A stretch of DNA of 33,439 nt, taken from the NCBI GenBank assembly GCA_014361245.1, contig JACIWB010000011.1, positions 1 to 33,439 of the forward strand. The letters run 5' to 3'. The translations under genes were made by a program, and so were the position numbers. Below the pieces are notes generated by a model that did no database searches, had not been told where the DNA came from, and saw only the letters and a program-made list of their open reading frames with translations. Below are positions 4,214 through 9,854 of this stretch, piece by piece. Within the stretch, counting starts at the first letter, position 1. Each line of letters begins with the position of its first letter. This stretch comes from Thermoplasmatales archaeon. GTDB taxonomy: Archaea; Thermoplasmatota; E2; UBA202; JdFR-43.

Positions 4214-5113
4214 ATGGCTATTGAAAGAAAATTTGTTGAGGAAAGTCAAAAAAGAGTTCTGCTGAAGGAATTCATAAAAAAAGAATGCGAGCGCGCCGGC
4301 TTTGGGGGAGTTAAAATTCAGCGCATACCTATGGGAACATTGATAACACTGCAGGTTGAAAGACCAGGATTAATCATAGGAAGAGGAGGAAAAAGAATAA
4401 ATGAAGTTACAAACATTATCAAGGAAAAATTTGGTGTTGAAAATCCACAAATTGAAATAGAAGATATAGGAGGGAAGGCTCTCCTTAATGCCACTCTGAT
4501 GGCTCAAAAAGTTGCTGACTCGCTTGAAAGAGGATGGCACTTTCGCAGAGTTGGTCATTCTACGGTTAGGAGGGTTGTTGAGGCGGGGGCAAGAGGTTGT
4601 CAGGTTGTTATATCTGGTAAGCTAACTGGAGAGAGACATAGATCAGAAAAATTCACCCTTGGTTATGTAAAATACTGCGGTGAGGTTGCAAAGCGGGTTA
4701 TGGATGAAGCAATTGCGGATGCGAAAACAAAGCCTGGCATAATAGGGGTTAAGGTAAGGTTGATGAAACCAGATGTTGAATTACCCGATATTGTAAAAAT
4801 AGTTGAGGAAGGAAGAGAAATTTTGAAGAGGGAAATGGAAGCAGCAAAGGCTGAGAGAGAGGAAAAACTTGAGAAGCTGGAGAAAATAGATATTATGAAT
4901 TTGCCTGAAATACCATCAAATGTTATTGCTTCATTGAAGAAATCGGGAATAAGGAATGCTCGTGAGCTTTATGAAATGGACATAAATGACCTTATTGAGA
5001 TTAAGGGGATTGGTATAAAAAGGGCTGAAAGAATTAAGGAAATACTAAAGGAGGTGCTTGAAAAAGATGAAGGCGAGAGAAATAAGGAAAATGAACAGGG
5101 AAGAGAGAATTAA
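4214..5113 (+). CDS. rps3: small ribosomal subunit protein uS3 with a C-terminal helix-hairpin-helix extension
   Basis: This 30S protein lies at the mRNA entry channel. The KH-type domain is near residues 17-90, with the GLIIGRGGKRINEV loop. The uS3 C-terminal domain follows, with RRVGHSTVRRVVEAGARGC and KLTGERHRSEKF. The core ends near residue 205. It continues through a charged helix (about 195-226) into a compact segment (about 228-285) that contains LIEIKGIGIKRAERIKEIL, a helix-hairpin-helix signature with its GxG hairpin. The total of 299 residues is far longer than the core family. GAGGAG precedes the ATG. The last 47 bases overlap uL29. The extension may bind rRNA, but that is inference. 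Confidence 0.95.
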   Translation: MAIERKFVEESQKRVLLKEFIKKECERAGFGGVKIQRIPMGTLITLQVERPGLIIGRGGKRINEVTNIIKEKFGVENPQIEIEDIGGKALLNATLMAQKVADSLERGWHFRRVGHSTVRRVVEAGARGCQVVISGKLTGERHRSEKFTLGYVKYCGEVAKRVMDEAIADAKTKPGIIGVKVRLMKPDVELPDIVKIVEEGREILKREMEAAKAEREEKLEKLEKIDIMNLPEIPSNVIASLKKSGIRNARELYEMDINDLIEIKGIGIKRAERIKEILKEVLEKDEGERNKENEQGREN

Positions 5114-5261
5114 AAAGCTGGGTGAATTGAGGAATGAATTGATGGAAGAATATGGCAAATCCTCTATGGGCGGCTCGTCGCCGTCGCCTGGAAGGATAAA
5201 ATATCTCCGTAAAAGCATAGCAAGGTTGCTCACAATTATGAGGGAGGAAGGAGATATATAA
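5067..5261 (+). CDS. rpl29: large ribosomal subunit protein uL29
   Basis: This small two-helix protein sits near the tunnel exit beside uL23. The 64 residues begin MKAREIRKMNREE, as in archaeal uL29, and include the conserved RKSIARLLTI helix. I chose the ATG at 5067, not the in-frame TTG at 5058. The Shine-Dalgarno GGAGGTG at 5050-5056 is about ten bases before the ATG but touches the TTG. The gene begins inside uS3, a 47-base overlap created by the uS3 extension, so the uL29 ribosome-binding site lies in the uS3 coding sequence. Confidence 0.95.
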   Translation: MKAREIRKMNREERIKKLGELRNELMEEYGKSSMGGSSPSPGRIKYLRKSIARLLTIMREEGDI

Positions 5262-6971: not shown

Positions 6972-7665
6972 AAGGTTGCCAGCCCCCCGCTCCTGGCAGA
7001 TTGAAAGGAAAGTGGCGAAATGGGCGGTGAAGCCGTCGCCTGGCACCCATGGCACGGAGGAGGCAATTCCATTATTAAATGTAATAAGAGATTATCTATC
7101 GCTTGCTGATAATGCAAGGGAAGCAAAGAAATTAATATCGGGAAGGGAGATACTTGTCGATGGGAAGGCAAGAACTGATTACAGATTTCCATGCGGGCTC
7201 ATGGATGTAGTAACCATAGTTCCTACAAATGAAAGCTACAGGGTTTTAATTGATTCAAGAGGTATTTTAAGGCTTGTTAAGATAGATGAGGAAGCAGCAA
7301 AATGGAAGCTTTGCAGGATAGAAAACAAAACAACTATAAGAGGGGGAAAGACGCAGTTAAATCTGCACGATGGGAGAAATATTATTGTAAATGAGGATAA
7401 ATACAAGACAGGGGATGCTTTAAAAATATCAATTCCAAAGCAGGAAATAATTGAGCACATTCCATTGCAACCTGGTTATCTTTCATTGATAACTGGCGGA
7501 AGCCATACAGGGAAAATAGGAAAAATAAAAAAAGTAATAGTTACAAAAAGCCCGTTGCCAAATATTGTTGAACTGGATGATTTTTCAACCATAAAGGAAT
7601 ATGTTTTTCCTGTTGGAAAAGATGAGCCATTGATAACTCTTCCGCAGGTGAGCATATATGGATAA
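6958..7665 (+). CDS. rps4e: small ribosomal subunit protein eS4
   Basis: This ribosomal protein is confined to archaea and eukaryotes. It opens MSHLKRLPAPRSWQIERKVA with the W-V-KPSPGTH segment, then an S4-type RNA-binding region (AKKLISGREILVDGKARTD). The central eS4 domain and a KOW stretch (ITGGSHTGKIGKIKKV) near residues 177-192 follow. Its 235 residues are normal. The ATG lies within the acidic tail of uL24, and the end overlaps uL5 by eight bases. Confidence 0.97.
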   Translation: MSHLKRLPAPRSWQIERKVAKWAVKPSPGTHGTEEAIPLLNVIRDYLSLADNAREAKKLISGREILVDGKARTDYRFPCGLMDVVTIVPTNESYRVLIDSRGILRLVKIDEEAAKWKLCRIENKTTIRGGKTQLNLHDGRNIIVNEDKYKTGDALKISIPKQEIIEHIPLQPGYLSLITGGSHTGKIGKIKKVIVTKSPLPNIVELDDFSTIKEYVFPVGKDEPLITLPQVSIYG

Positions 7666-8167
7666 TCCAATGCGTGCTATAAAAATAGAAAAAGTTGTTG
7701 TAAATATGGGCGTGGGCGAAGGAGGAGAAAAGCTTAAGAAAGCGGAGCAGGTGATGGAACAGCTCACAAAGCAGAAGCCCGTAAAAACAATTGCAAAAAG
7801 GACAAATCGTGACTTTGGAATTAAAAAAGGCATGCCAATCGGGTGCAAAGTAACTCTTAGGAAGGATAAAGCAATAGATTTTCTTAAAAAGGCATTGTGG
7901 GTTCGTGATTATAAGCTACCTAAATGGTCATTTTCTGAAGGAACTGTATCATTTGGAATAAAAGAGCATACTGAATTTGAAGGAATGAAATATCAACCAG
8001 AAATAGGCATATTTGGATTGGATGTATGCATTACATTTGAAAGAAATGGATACAGGGTTAAGAGAAGAAAAATTGCAAAAAGCAAGTTGCCAGAAAGGGA
8101 AAAGATAAAAAGCAATGAAATAATTGATTATATGAAAAAAGAATTTAATGTAGAGGTAATAGAATGA
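7658..8167 (+). CDS. rpl5: large ribosomal subunit protein uL5
   Basis: This protein of the central protuberance binds 5S rRNA and contacts the P-site tRNA. The N-terminal [20 protein letters not shown] and the [20 protein letters not shown] stretch identify it. The C-terminal [19 protein letters not shown] is archaeal in type. AGGTGAG at 7646-7652 sits six bases before the ATG at 7658, which favours it over the ATG at 7670. Its 169 residues are typical. The stop overlaps the uS14 ATG. Confidence 0.96.
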
Positions 8168-8319
8168 AGATAAAGGAAAGGCAGAAAAAATACGGGCGTA
8201 TCGATGGCTGCAACAGATGCGGGCGCAAGCGCGGAATAATAAGGAGATATGGAATGCATCTCTGCAGGCAGTGCTTCAGAGAGATTGCAGAGGAAATGGG
8301 ATTTAAGAAGTTCAGCTGA
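8164..8319 (+). CDS. rps14: small ribosomal subunit protein uS14, zinc-binding form
   Basis: A 51-codon gene reads [20 protein letters not shown] onward. It has two CxxC pairs (C16/C19 and C34/C37) that form the zinc site of the archaeal/C+ type uS14, and the conserved [17 protein letters not shown] end. Its role is in the 30S head near uS3 and uS10. The ATG overlaps the uL5 stop as ATGA. It is the last gene of the operon here; no uS8 follows, and the next gene is on the other strand starting at the very next base. Confidence 0.96.
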
Positions 8320-8796
8320 TTATTTTTCATCCATTTTTTCCAGGTATTCCAGAAGCATTCCAAGTGCTGCATTGCAGAAATTCTGCTTGTTTTCAATTCT
8401 GTTTCCCTTGAATAAAAATCTTCTTACTTCAGTTGTTTTTGGAGTTGCAAGAGCAACATAAACAAGCCCGACTGGCTTTTCTTGCGTTCCACCTGTTGGG
8501 CCAGCTATACCTGTTGTTGCTATTGCTATGTCTGCTCCTATGGCTTTTCTTGCGCCCTCCGCCATTTCGCGGGCTGTTTGCTCTGAAACCGCGCCATATT
8601 TTCTTAGAGTTTCTTCTTTTACGCCAAGTATTTTAACCTTTACTTCGTTGCTATAAGCCACAACTCCTCCTTTAAAATATTCTGAGCTTCCAGAAATGTT
8701 TGTAAGGGTGTGGGCTATTAAGCCAGATGTGCATGATTCAGCTGTTGCAACCCATAATTTTTTATTTTTAAGCAGTTCAGCGATTTTTTCAATCAT
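8320..8796 (-). CDS. pncC: CinA C-terminal domain protein, probable nicotinamide-nucleotide amidase
   Basis: The family deamidates nicotinamide mononucleotide to nicotinate mononucleotide, recycling pyridine nucleotides in the cytosol. The start motif VATAESCTSGLIAHTLTNI (residues 16-34), then SEYFKGGVVAYSNEVK, and the ADIAIATTGIAGPTGGTQEK loop are diagnostic. Its 158 residues match the stand-alone domain; the N-terminal MoCF-like half of full CinA is absent. It converges with uS14 with no bases between the stop codons. Upstream, 24 AT-rich bases separate it from NikR; they could hold its own TATA element. The enzymatic role is inferred from the family. Confidence 0.88.
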   Translation of the reverse strand: MIEKIAELLKNKKLWVATAESCTSGLIAHTLTNISGSSEYFKGGVVAYSNEVKVKILGVKEETLRKYGAVSEQTAREMAEGARKAIGADIAIATTGIAGPTGGTQEKPVGLVYVALATPKTTEVRRFLFKGNRIENKQNFCNAALGMLLEYLEKMDEK

Positions 8797-8820
8797 GATA
8801 ATAAATAGATTATATTTATT

Positions 8821-9216
8821 TTATGTTGATGTTACAAGGTGCGAGGATATAACTCCCTTTATCGCAGCCAATTTGTTTAAAAGTTTTTTTATATCCCTTG
8901 CCCTTCCTCTTACAGCAATTATTTCAAGGCATTTTTCCTCGCTTAAATGAACATGCATTGTTGCATTTATAATATCATTGTATTCGTGCTGTGCCTGAGT
9001 GAGCAACTCGCTTGTAGAGGGGCTGTGAATATATGTAAATACTATTGCTCCAGCAATTTCTCCTTTTTCCTTCAGAAATTTATGAGATGTAATAAATTCA
9101 TGTATTGCAGATGAAATTGCATTGCTCCTGTTTTTATACCCCATTTCCTTACAAATTTCATCAAATTTTTTTAATAAGTCGCCTGGCAAAGTTGCACTAA
9201 TTCGAATTTTTTTCAT
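8821..9216 (-). CDS. nikR: NikR, nickel-responsive transcriptional regulator
   Basis: A ribbon-helix-helix DNA-binding domain (residues 1-45, KIRISATLPGDLLKKFDEIC) precedes an ACT-like metal-sensing domain. All four high-affinity nickel ligands of the family can be placed: H77 in QAQHEYND, H88 and H90 in ATMHVHL, and C96 in EEKCLEI. At 131 residues it is of normal length and probably tetrameric. In other organisms NikR controls nickel uptake, but no nickel transporter or nickel enzyme lies in this window. Its ATG overlaps the end of the upstream disulfide oxidoreductase (ATGA), so the two are co-expressed. Confidence 0.92.
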   Translation of the reverse strand: MKKIRISATLPGDLLKKFDEICKEMGYKNRSNAISSAIHEFITSHKFLKEKGEIAGAIVFTYIHSPSTSELLTQAQHEYNDIINATMHVHLSEEKCLEIIAVRGRARDIKKLLNKLAAIKGVISSHLVTST

Positions 9217-9854
9217 ATTGCTTTCCTTATTTCATTCAACAAATGCTCCTCTCTTACCGAACCAACTATTTCTATTTTATCATTTATAACTGTCTTAGGC
9301 ACACCCATAACATTGTATTTATGGGCTAAATGAGGAAACTCAACAATTTCTATCATATCAGCTGTTATATTTTCATTTTCTATTGCCATCTGGTGGGCAA
9401 GATGCGTCATTGATGGGCAGTATGGGCATGTTGGAGTAACAAATACCTGCAAGTGCAACTTTTTATTTATTTTTCTTATCTCTTCCTTTGTTTCTTCCTT
9501 TAAATTGCTTCTTCCCCTGGAAACGGATATTATGTCTTCAATTAATGCAGAAAACTCATAGCCAGATGGAATTCCAAAAAATCTTACTCCATATTCTTTT
9601 TCTCCAAAAAGCAGAATTGCTGGTATCTTATCAACTTTATATTTTTCTGCAATTTCTTTTTCCTTATTGAATTCATGTATTTCAAGCTTTATTTTATTGC
9701 TCAATTCCTTCAATTCTTCAAGGATTTCTCTTGTTTCCTTGCAGAACTGGCATTCAAAATCTTGAGTAAAATAAACAACTTTTACATCTTTTTCCATTTC
9801 CCTTTCAAATTTTTCCTTAATATAGTTTTTATCGCTTTTGTTTATAATCGCCAT
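9213..9854 (-). CDS. pdo: protein disulfide oxidoreductase with two thioredoxin folds
   Basis: Two tandem thioredoxin/glutaredoxin-like folds make this a PDO-type protein, used by many thermophiles for cytosolic disulfide exchange. The first active site is CQFC (C35-C38) and the second is CPYC (C143-C146). Each half has its cis-proline region (VDKIPAILLF and VMGVPKTVI). The 213-residue length fits. It is the first gene of a leftward pair with NikR. A minus-strand TTTAAATA at 9872-9879, about 22 bases upstream of the ATG, suggests a leaderless transcript. It may be a reductase for another partner rather than an oxidant. Confidence 0.88.
   Translation of the reverse strand: MAIINKSDKNYIKEKFEREMEKDVKVVYFTQDFECQFCKETREILEELKELSNKIKLEIHEFNKEKEIAEKYKVDKIPAILLFGEKEYGVRFFGIPSGYEFSALIEDIISVSRGRSNLKEETKEEIRKINKKLHLQVFVTPTCPYCPSMTHLAHQMAIENENITADMIEIVEFPHLAHKYNVMGVPKTVINDKIEIVGSVREEHLLNEIRKAI

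Follow-up and report, generated by a model that had tools for sequence, protein, structure and literature searches.

The uS3 gene discussed here lies on a contig of a Thermoplasmatales archaeon (JACIWB010000011.1), positions 1–33,439 of which are called the window below. Its product runs well past the end of the conserved uS3 core, and the question raised by this locus is what the additional C-terminal segment is, how it is distributed among relatives, and what it could do on the ribosome. Helix-hairpin-helix (HhH) domains are usually at home in DNA-repair and transcription proteins, and HhH folds serve as protein contacts too. Ribosomal proteins extended by additional domains already exist, including eL32 with an HhH, and uS3 with an HhH (uS3-HhH) adds to this known kind. 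In the titles and abstracts found in the open literature, most subscription papers being beyond reach, an HhH on uS3 is not described. Its occurrence makes lineage-specific additions to the ribosome concrete and testable, and it bears on a possible physical contact of archaeal ribosomes with incoming mRNA, nascent transcripts, or DNA.

The uS3 core and its C-terminal domain

The protein is identified as archaeal uS3 by curated models (NF003219, 273.8 bits with a cut-off of 147; TIGR01008, 245.6 bits with a cut-off of 150.25), and the source genome, 98.96% complete, contains a single copy, with PF00189 matching at one place. The core is intact and ends at approximately residue 195–205. Since the TIGR01008 equivalog model stops at residue 198, NF003219 at residue 220, and the alignment with archaeal PDB uS3 chains at residues 186–217, about 80–100 residues of the window uS3 are additional. 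This agrees with the earlier sequence-only reading, in which the core ended near residue 205 of a protein of 299 residues. The features of the region are collected in Table 1.

Table 1. Features of the uS3 gene and of the adjoining uL29 gene, in window coordinates.
Feature	Position	Strand	Basis
uS3 gene, 299 aa + stop	4214–5113	+	PF00189 at 88.1 bits, PF07650 at 45.4 bits; each exceeds its cut-off
Archaeal uS3 core, residues 1–195	4214–4798	+	TIGR01008 match 3–198; alignment of 43 sequences
Charged linker, residues ~198–225, predicted long helix	4805–4888	+	Helix 198–224 (full model), 203–224 (tail model); variable in relatives
Predicted (HhH)2 domain, residues 227–282	4892–5059	+	HHH_5 above cut-off; profile boundaries 227–282; model and structural neighbors
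Hairpin 1, residues 231–235 (PEIPS), GxG gone	4904–4918	+	GxG in 0/13 distinct family domains versus 15/15 in family f4
Hairpin 2, residues 264–270 (KGIGIKR), canonical	5003–5023	+	GxG 13/13 and K269 13/13 in family
GGAGGTG, Shine–Dalgarno-like for uL29, within uS3 HhH codons	5050–5056	+	Read from sequence
Post-HhH tail and uS3 stop, mostly shared with uL29	5060–5113	+	Low model confidence; synonymous changes 16/155 over residues 274–294
uL29 gene, start 47 bases within uS3	5067–5261	+	ATG 5067; distance counted to end of uS3 stop codon

Canonical archaeal uS3 proteins, as seen in the structures from Pyrococcus, Thermococcus, and Methanosarcina, share the core of ~200 residues (41–47% identity at Foldseek ranks 1–9, all archaeal) but have no HhH. 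The uS3 of Methanosarcina acetivorans is 318 residues long, but its match ends at query residue 217 (the structure library contains 186 of its residues), and it was not among the best 60 of 169 HhH-profile matches. The claim that the HhH is foreign to canonical uS3 and lineage-specific therefore holds, as none is found in the solved archaeal uS3 chains.

The tail matches the Pfam family HHH_5 over residues 239–280 with 32.9 bits (34.2 bits for the tail alone; cut-off 27). A model of the full-length protein (mean pLDDT 66.5) gave uS3 cores among the Foldseek matches listed; as it was uninformative for the tail, the latter was modeled alone with AlphaFold2. The resulting model comprises five helices (mean pLDDT 76.9; 10-residue blocks of 78–88 over residues 211–280), and its structural neighbors are the N-domains of RAD51/Dmc1/RadA, the NusA C-terminal repeat, and the C-terminal domain (CTD) of the RNA polymerase α subunit, with VIA Z scores of 8.9–10.8. 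One example is 8xbw_L (Z 10.1, rmsd 1.2 Å, 60 residues aligned), while Foldseek E-values were no better than 0.012 for this short domain. As modeled, the uS3 tail folds as a tandem (HhH)2, preceded by the charged linker. Both the charged helix and the HhH signature KGIGIKRAERI noted earlier are thus recovered, the signature (residues 264–274) being hairpin 2 of a domain with two hairpins; a predicted structure without an HhH fold, named beforehand as a refuting outcome, did not occur.

In hairpin 2, the GxG is G265-I-G267, and G265, G267, K269, and A271 are nearly invariant among the aligned relatives. Hairpin 1 of the window uS3 reads E232-I-P234 in place of GxG; in most relatives both hairpins carry the motif (e.g., PGIGPS and GIG). 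The first hairpin is degenerate also in family f8, and f11 is without GxG in either hairpin. A GxG in hairpin 1 is no strict requirement for a tandem HhH, several XPF-type and LigA domains being without one GxG.

Each of the known domains resembles the tail in part. The Pfam model of the bacterial RNA polymerase α CTD, which has the same fold, passes on residues 217–280 (26.5 vs. 23.8 bits), but the host protein is uS3, and the full-length rpoA model reaches 23.1 bits against a cut-off of 227.8. The RadA/RAD51 N-terminal domain has the (HhH)2 fold in common with the tail, but the GxG is missing from hairpin 2 in RadA (5/5 sampled) and from hairpin 1 in the window's uS3 family. The NusA C-terminal repeats show the same fold as well, 6flq and 6x7k scoring Z 9.2 with the tail model. 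Within the source genome, HHH_5 also matches proteins that, named from their sequences, we take to be RadA, PolX, LigA, Hel308, and an XPF-type nuclease, all of them DNA-binding proteins, with a presumed FEN1 below the cut-off; two further matches (L205, L211) lie outside this set.

Distribution, origin, and the counterpart on eL32

A search of the phylum Thermoplasmatota covered 389 genomes, 370 of which gave a match. Within the window's class 75 genomes matched, and as the match in G157 (E 7.6e-4) is not uS3, 74 uS3 genes were considered. The HhH is present in 68 of these by hand count (40 read as sequence and 28 called by a tblastn span to query residue 274 or further), absent from three (G149 of family f5, G073, and G211; families f5, f6, and f9), and uncallable in three (G228 is masked; G060 and G237 run off the contig end). 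All same-family genomes with a uS3 carry the domain (14/14, hand count), as does family f4 (42/42, hand count), and the uS3 of a same-genus genome is 90% identical over the full 299 residues. Absence from close relatives through a frameshift, the other refuting outcome named beforehand, thus did not occur. A frameshift or misassembly joining uS3 to an unrelated ORF is ruled out as the source of the tail by these relatives, and we give it practically no credence. The assembly G163 contains two uS3 copies with similar scores (C79, C45), possibly a strain mixture.

Beyond the class, 74 of the 295 matching genomes were read, and with four of them open at the contig end, 70 genes were readable. Six of these have uS3-HhH, all in four related families (f12, f23, f29, f31) and all above the HHH_5 cut-off (43.5–60.1 bits); the other 64 are without it. 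The calls are bimodal, with no tail between E 1e-6 and 1 when a profile built from the positives is used. Named public records, labeled Thermoplasmata/Thermoplasmatota (several kinds) or unplaced Euryarchaeota/archaea, comprise 44 with uS3-HhH and 36 without (n = 80); several contigs are common to this set and the genome set, and the two counts are not additive. Outside the phylum, the comparison consisted of one haloarchaeal uS3 and the PDB chains. Most genomes sampled from the class have inherited the domain, a folded addition of the nucleic-acid-binding type to a ribosomal protein that is universal and lies at the side of mRNA entry. A similar gain may have happened again in another part of the phylum, and eL32 bears domains of this kind as well. 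L252 and L262, proteins with tandem HhH2 repeats (two or three), were also observed in genomes with uS3-HhH (G031, G001).

The HhH domain is conserved and under purifying selection. In all eight pairs tested, pN was below pS for core, linker, and HhH alike, and dN/dS of the HhH was 0.03–0.17 in the seven pairs where it was computable, with lower values for the core; values for the post-HhH stretch, at most 12 codons long, are unreliable.

On a tree of the uS3 core (105 rows), HhH presence takes three changes, in the main clade, a second clade, and f8. From the 120 sequences read, the near-copy L006 and the masked-tail L033 were dropped, as were those open at the contig end (L042, L057, L076, L087, L092, L094) and those with long branches, all without HhH (L050, L095, L096, L098, L104, L118, L121); with L006 and L033 alone removed, the count rises to five. 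A single uS3-HhH clade is not rejected by the AU test (p 0.44 with f8, 0.60 without). These trees make two or more origins possible, and the HhH of the extra-class families may perhaps be a second acquisition. A tree of the HhH domain itself (55 columns) places the class-type uS3 HhH together with f8 (support 87; a single PolX row, long and probably stray, falls into this group) and apart from eL32, RadA, and the second uS3 clade, the separation of the uS3 types being weak. Two possible sources were considered and set aside: the HhH of eL32 from the same gene cluster is not grouped with the tail by the domain tree, although 55 columns are too few to decide, and for a recent copy of another HhH gene the only other match was an XPF-type nuclease tail (31% over ~85 residues), too weak for a donor.

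A profile of 60 uS3 tails, searched against PDB sequences, matched the N-termini of haloarchaeal eL32 best (6.7e-13), followed by NusA, Topo V, LigA, the α CTD, and RadA. Given this top match, eL32 was examined in 30 genomes, 29 of which matched. HHH_5 is above the cut-off in six scanned representatives (f4, f7, f11, f12, f29, f31) and below it in f25, with no Pfam match in f38; by sequence reading, the domain is absent from eL32 in f1, f2, and f8 and in families without uS3-HhH (f5, f6, f9, f15, f19, f32, f36). In f24 and f34, eL32 has instead an N-terminal SAP domain, non-homologous to HhH (59.6 and 53.3 bits; L239:1225–1836 and L237:1468–2142). Counted by family, eL32-HhH occurs in 6/9 with uS3-HhH and 0/11 without (Fisher p 0.002, families not being independent; f23, with no eL32 match, is outside the count), and this co-occurrence is a lead only. 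The presence of HhH or SAP on eL32 suggests repeated recruitment of nucleic-acid-binding modules to Thermoplasmatota ribosomes.

Haloarchaeal eL32 resembles the window uS3 in that a homologous HhH extends a ribosomal protein encoded in the same gene cluster (54.5 bits with HHH_5 in Natronorubrum bangense), but it belongs to the large subunit and its HhH is N-terminal. The window HhH is C-terminal to uS3 and thus falls outside the eL32-type extension. The Natronorubrum uS3 has an acidic tail and no HhH. No eL32 chain was found among the best 50 of each of two structural searches with the tail model; in the Haloarcula 50S structure, where we take 1s72_Y to be eL32, its N-terminus is presumably not modeled, which would fit the missing matches but is no proof.

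Several observations on eL32 stand apart. An N-terminal HhH2 was seen on the eL32 of relatives (L231, L221, L220, L234, L240, L227), and in L225 (G184; ~2178, minus strand) an in-frame stop lies inside the eL32 HhH, with HhH sequence on both sides, which may be due to sequencing error, decay, or recoding. The eL32 of the window genome (L222) is short and without HhH. In the window, the run of ribosomal genes stops after a uL5-like ORF (7658–8167), with minus-strand ORFs beyond (8145–9854); as eL32 is on a separate contig (C13), the S10/spc cluster seems to be broken there.

Possible role on the ribosome

Published work places uS3 in the lining of the mRNA entry and helicase region (PMC11274626; PMC8116511). 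Judging from the conserved hairpin and the modeled fold, the chances appear about even that the (HhH)2 is a tethered module for nucleic-acid backbones outside the 30S subunit. The charged, variable linker would tether it near the uS3-lined mRNA entry, where hairpin 2 (G265-I-G267-x-K269) could grip the backbone. The likeliest substrate would be RNA close to the entry site, either incoming mRNA or nearby rRNA, bound weakly and without sequence specificity, and a domain on such a linker would most likely behave as a mobile gripping arm. The net charge of the domain is ~0 (family mean +0.5; −9 in f31), so that strong binding is not predicted; together with the decayed hairpin 1, this near-neutrality points to weak or one-sided binding and keeps a protein-docking role possible.

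Such docking, as known for many SAM/HhH-fold domains, would recruit a partner to the 30S head, such as an RNA polymerase subunit or a factor of translation or RNA processing. A near-neutral domain whose first hairpin has decayed throughout the family speaks for it, as do structural neighbors such as the RAD51 N-lobe with bound histone H4 tail and the α CTD with Spx or CAP, but the GxG-x-K of hairpin 2 is kept in 13/13 family domains and most others, and we regard it as rather unlikely. Somewhat less probable still is that the HhH docks on rRNA and forms a fixed structural piece of the 30S head specific to the lineage: the predicted long linker helix of the window's family could orient the domain, but linker length and composition differ strongly by family, from short and K/E-rich to long and Pro/Ala- or acid-rich. 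That the tail is a dispensable appendage on its way to loss would agree with its absence from three families of the class, f5 (G149), f6, and f9, and with the decayed hairpin 1 in f1, f8, and f11; the constancy of the domain in the window's family and in f4, and a pN well under pS, make this highly improbable.

The uS3 domain may also be seen together with eL32. In several Thermoplasmatota, both subunits carry modules of the DNA-binding type (HhH on uS3; HhH or SAP on eL32), which could conceivably anchor translating ribosomes on nascent transcripts or on chromosomal DNA, a speculative idea that we consider quite unlikely. If true, it would mean archaeal transcription–translation coupling via the ribosomal proteins themselves, with the window's family keeping the uS3 module alone.

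The overlap with uL29

The 47-base overlap between uS3 and uL29 stands as first read, but the suggestion that the HhH forces it does not: the domain ends at 5059, before the uL29 ATG. Within the window's family the two genes share 32–47 bases; among the remaining HhH carriers read, the value is −16 to +17, and several relatives without HhH have 35–80. The overlap stems from the short post-HhH tail, not from the HhH.

Synonymous changes drop toward the 3′ end of uS3, from 44/166 at residues 253–273 to 16/155 at residues 274–294, as expected because the uL29 start region and reading frame overlap there; the conserved codons of hairpin 2 among family members may accordingly not be wholly protein-driven. 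Fewer synonymous changes were seen across the last ~40 uS3 codons (4970–5113), with an onset ahead of the uL29 overlap, a pattern that may reflect translation coupling or an initiation structure for uL29.
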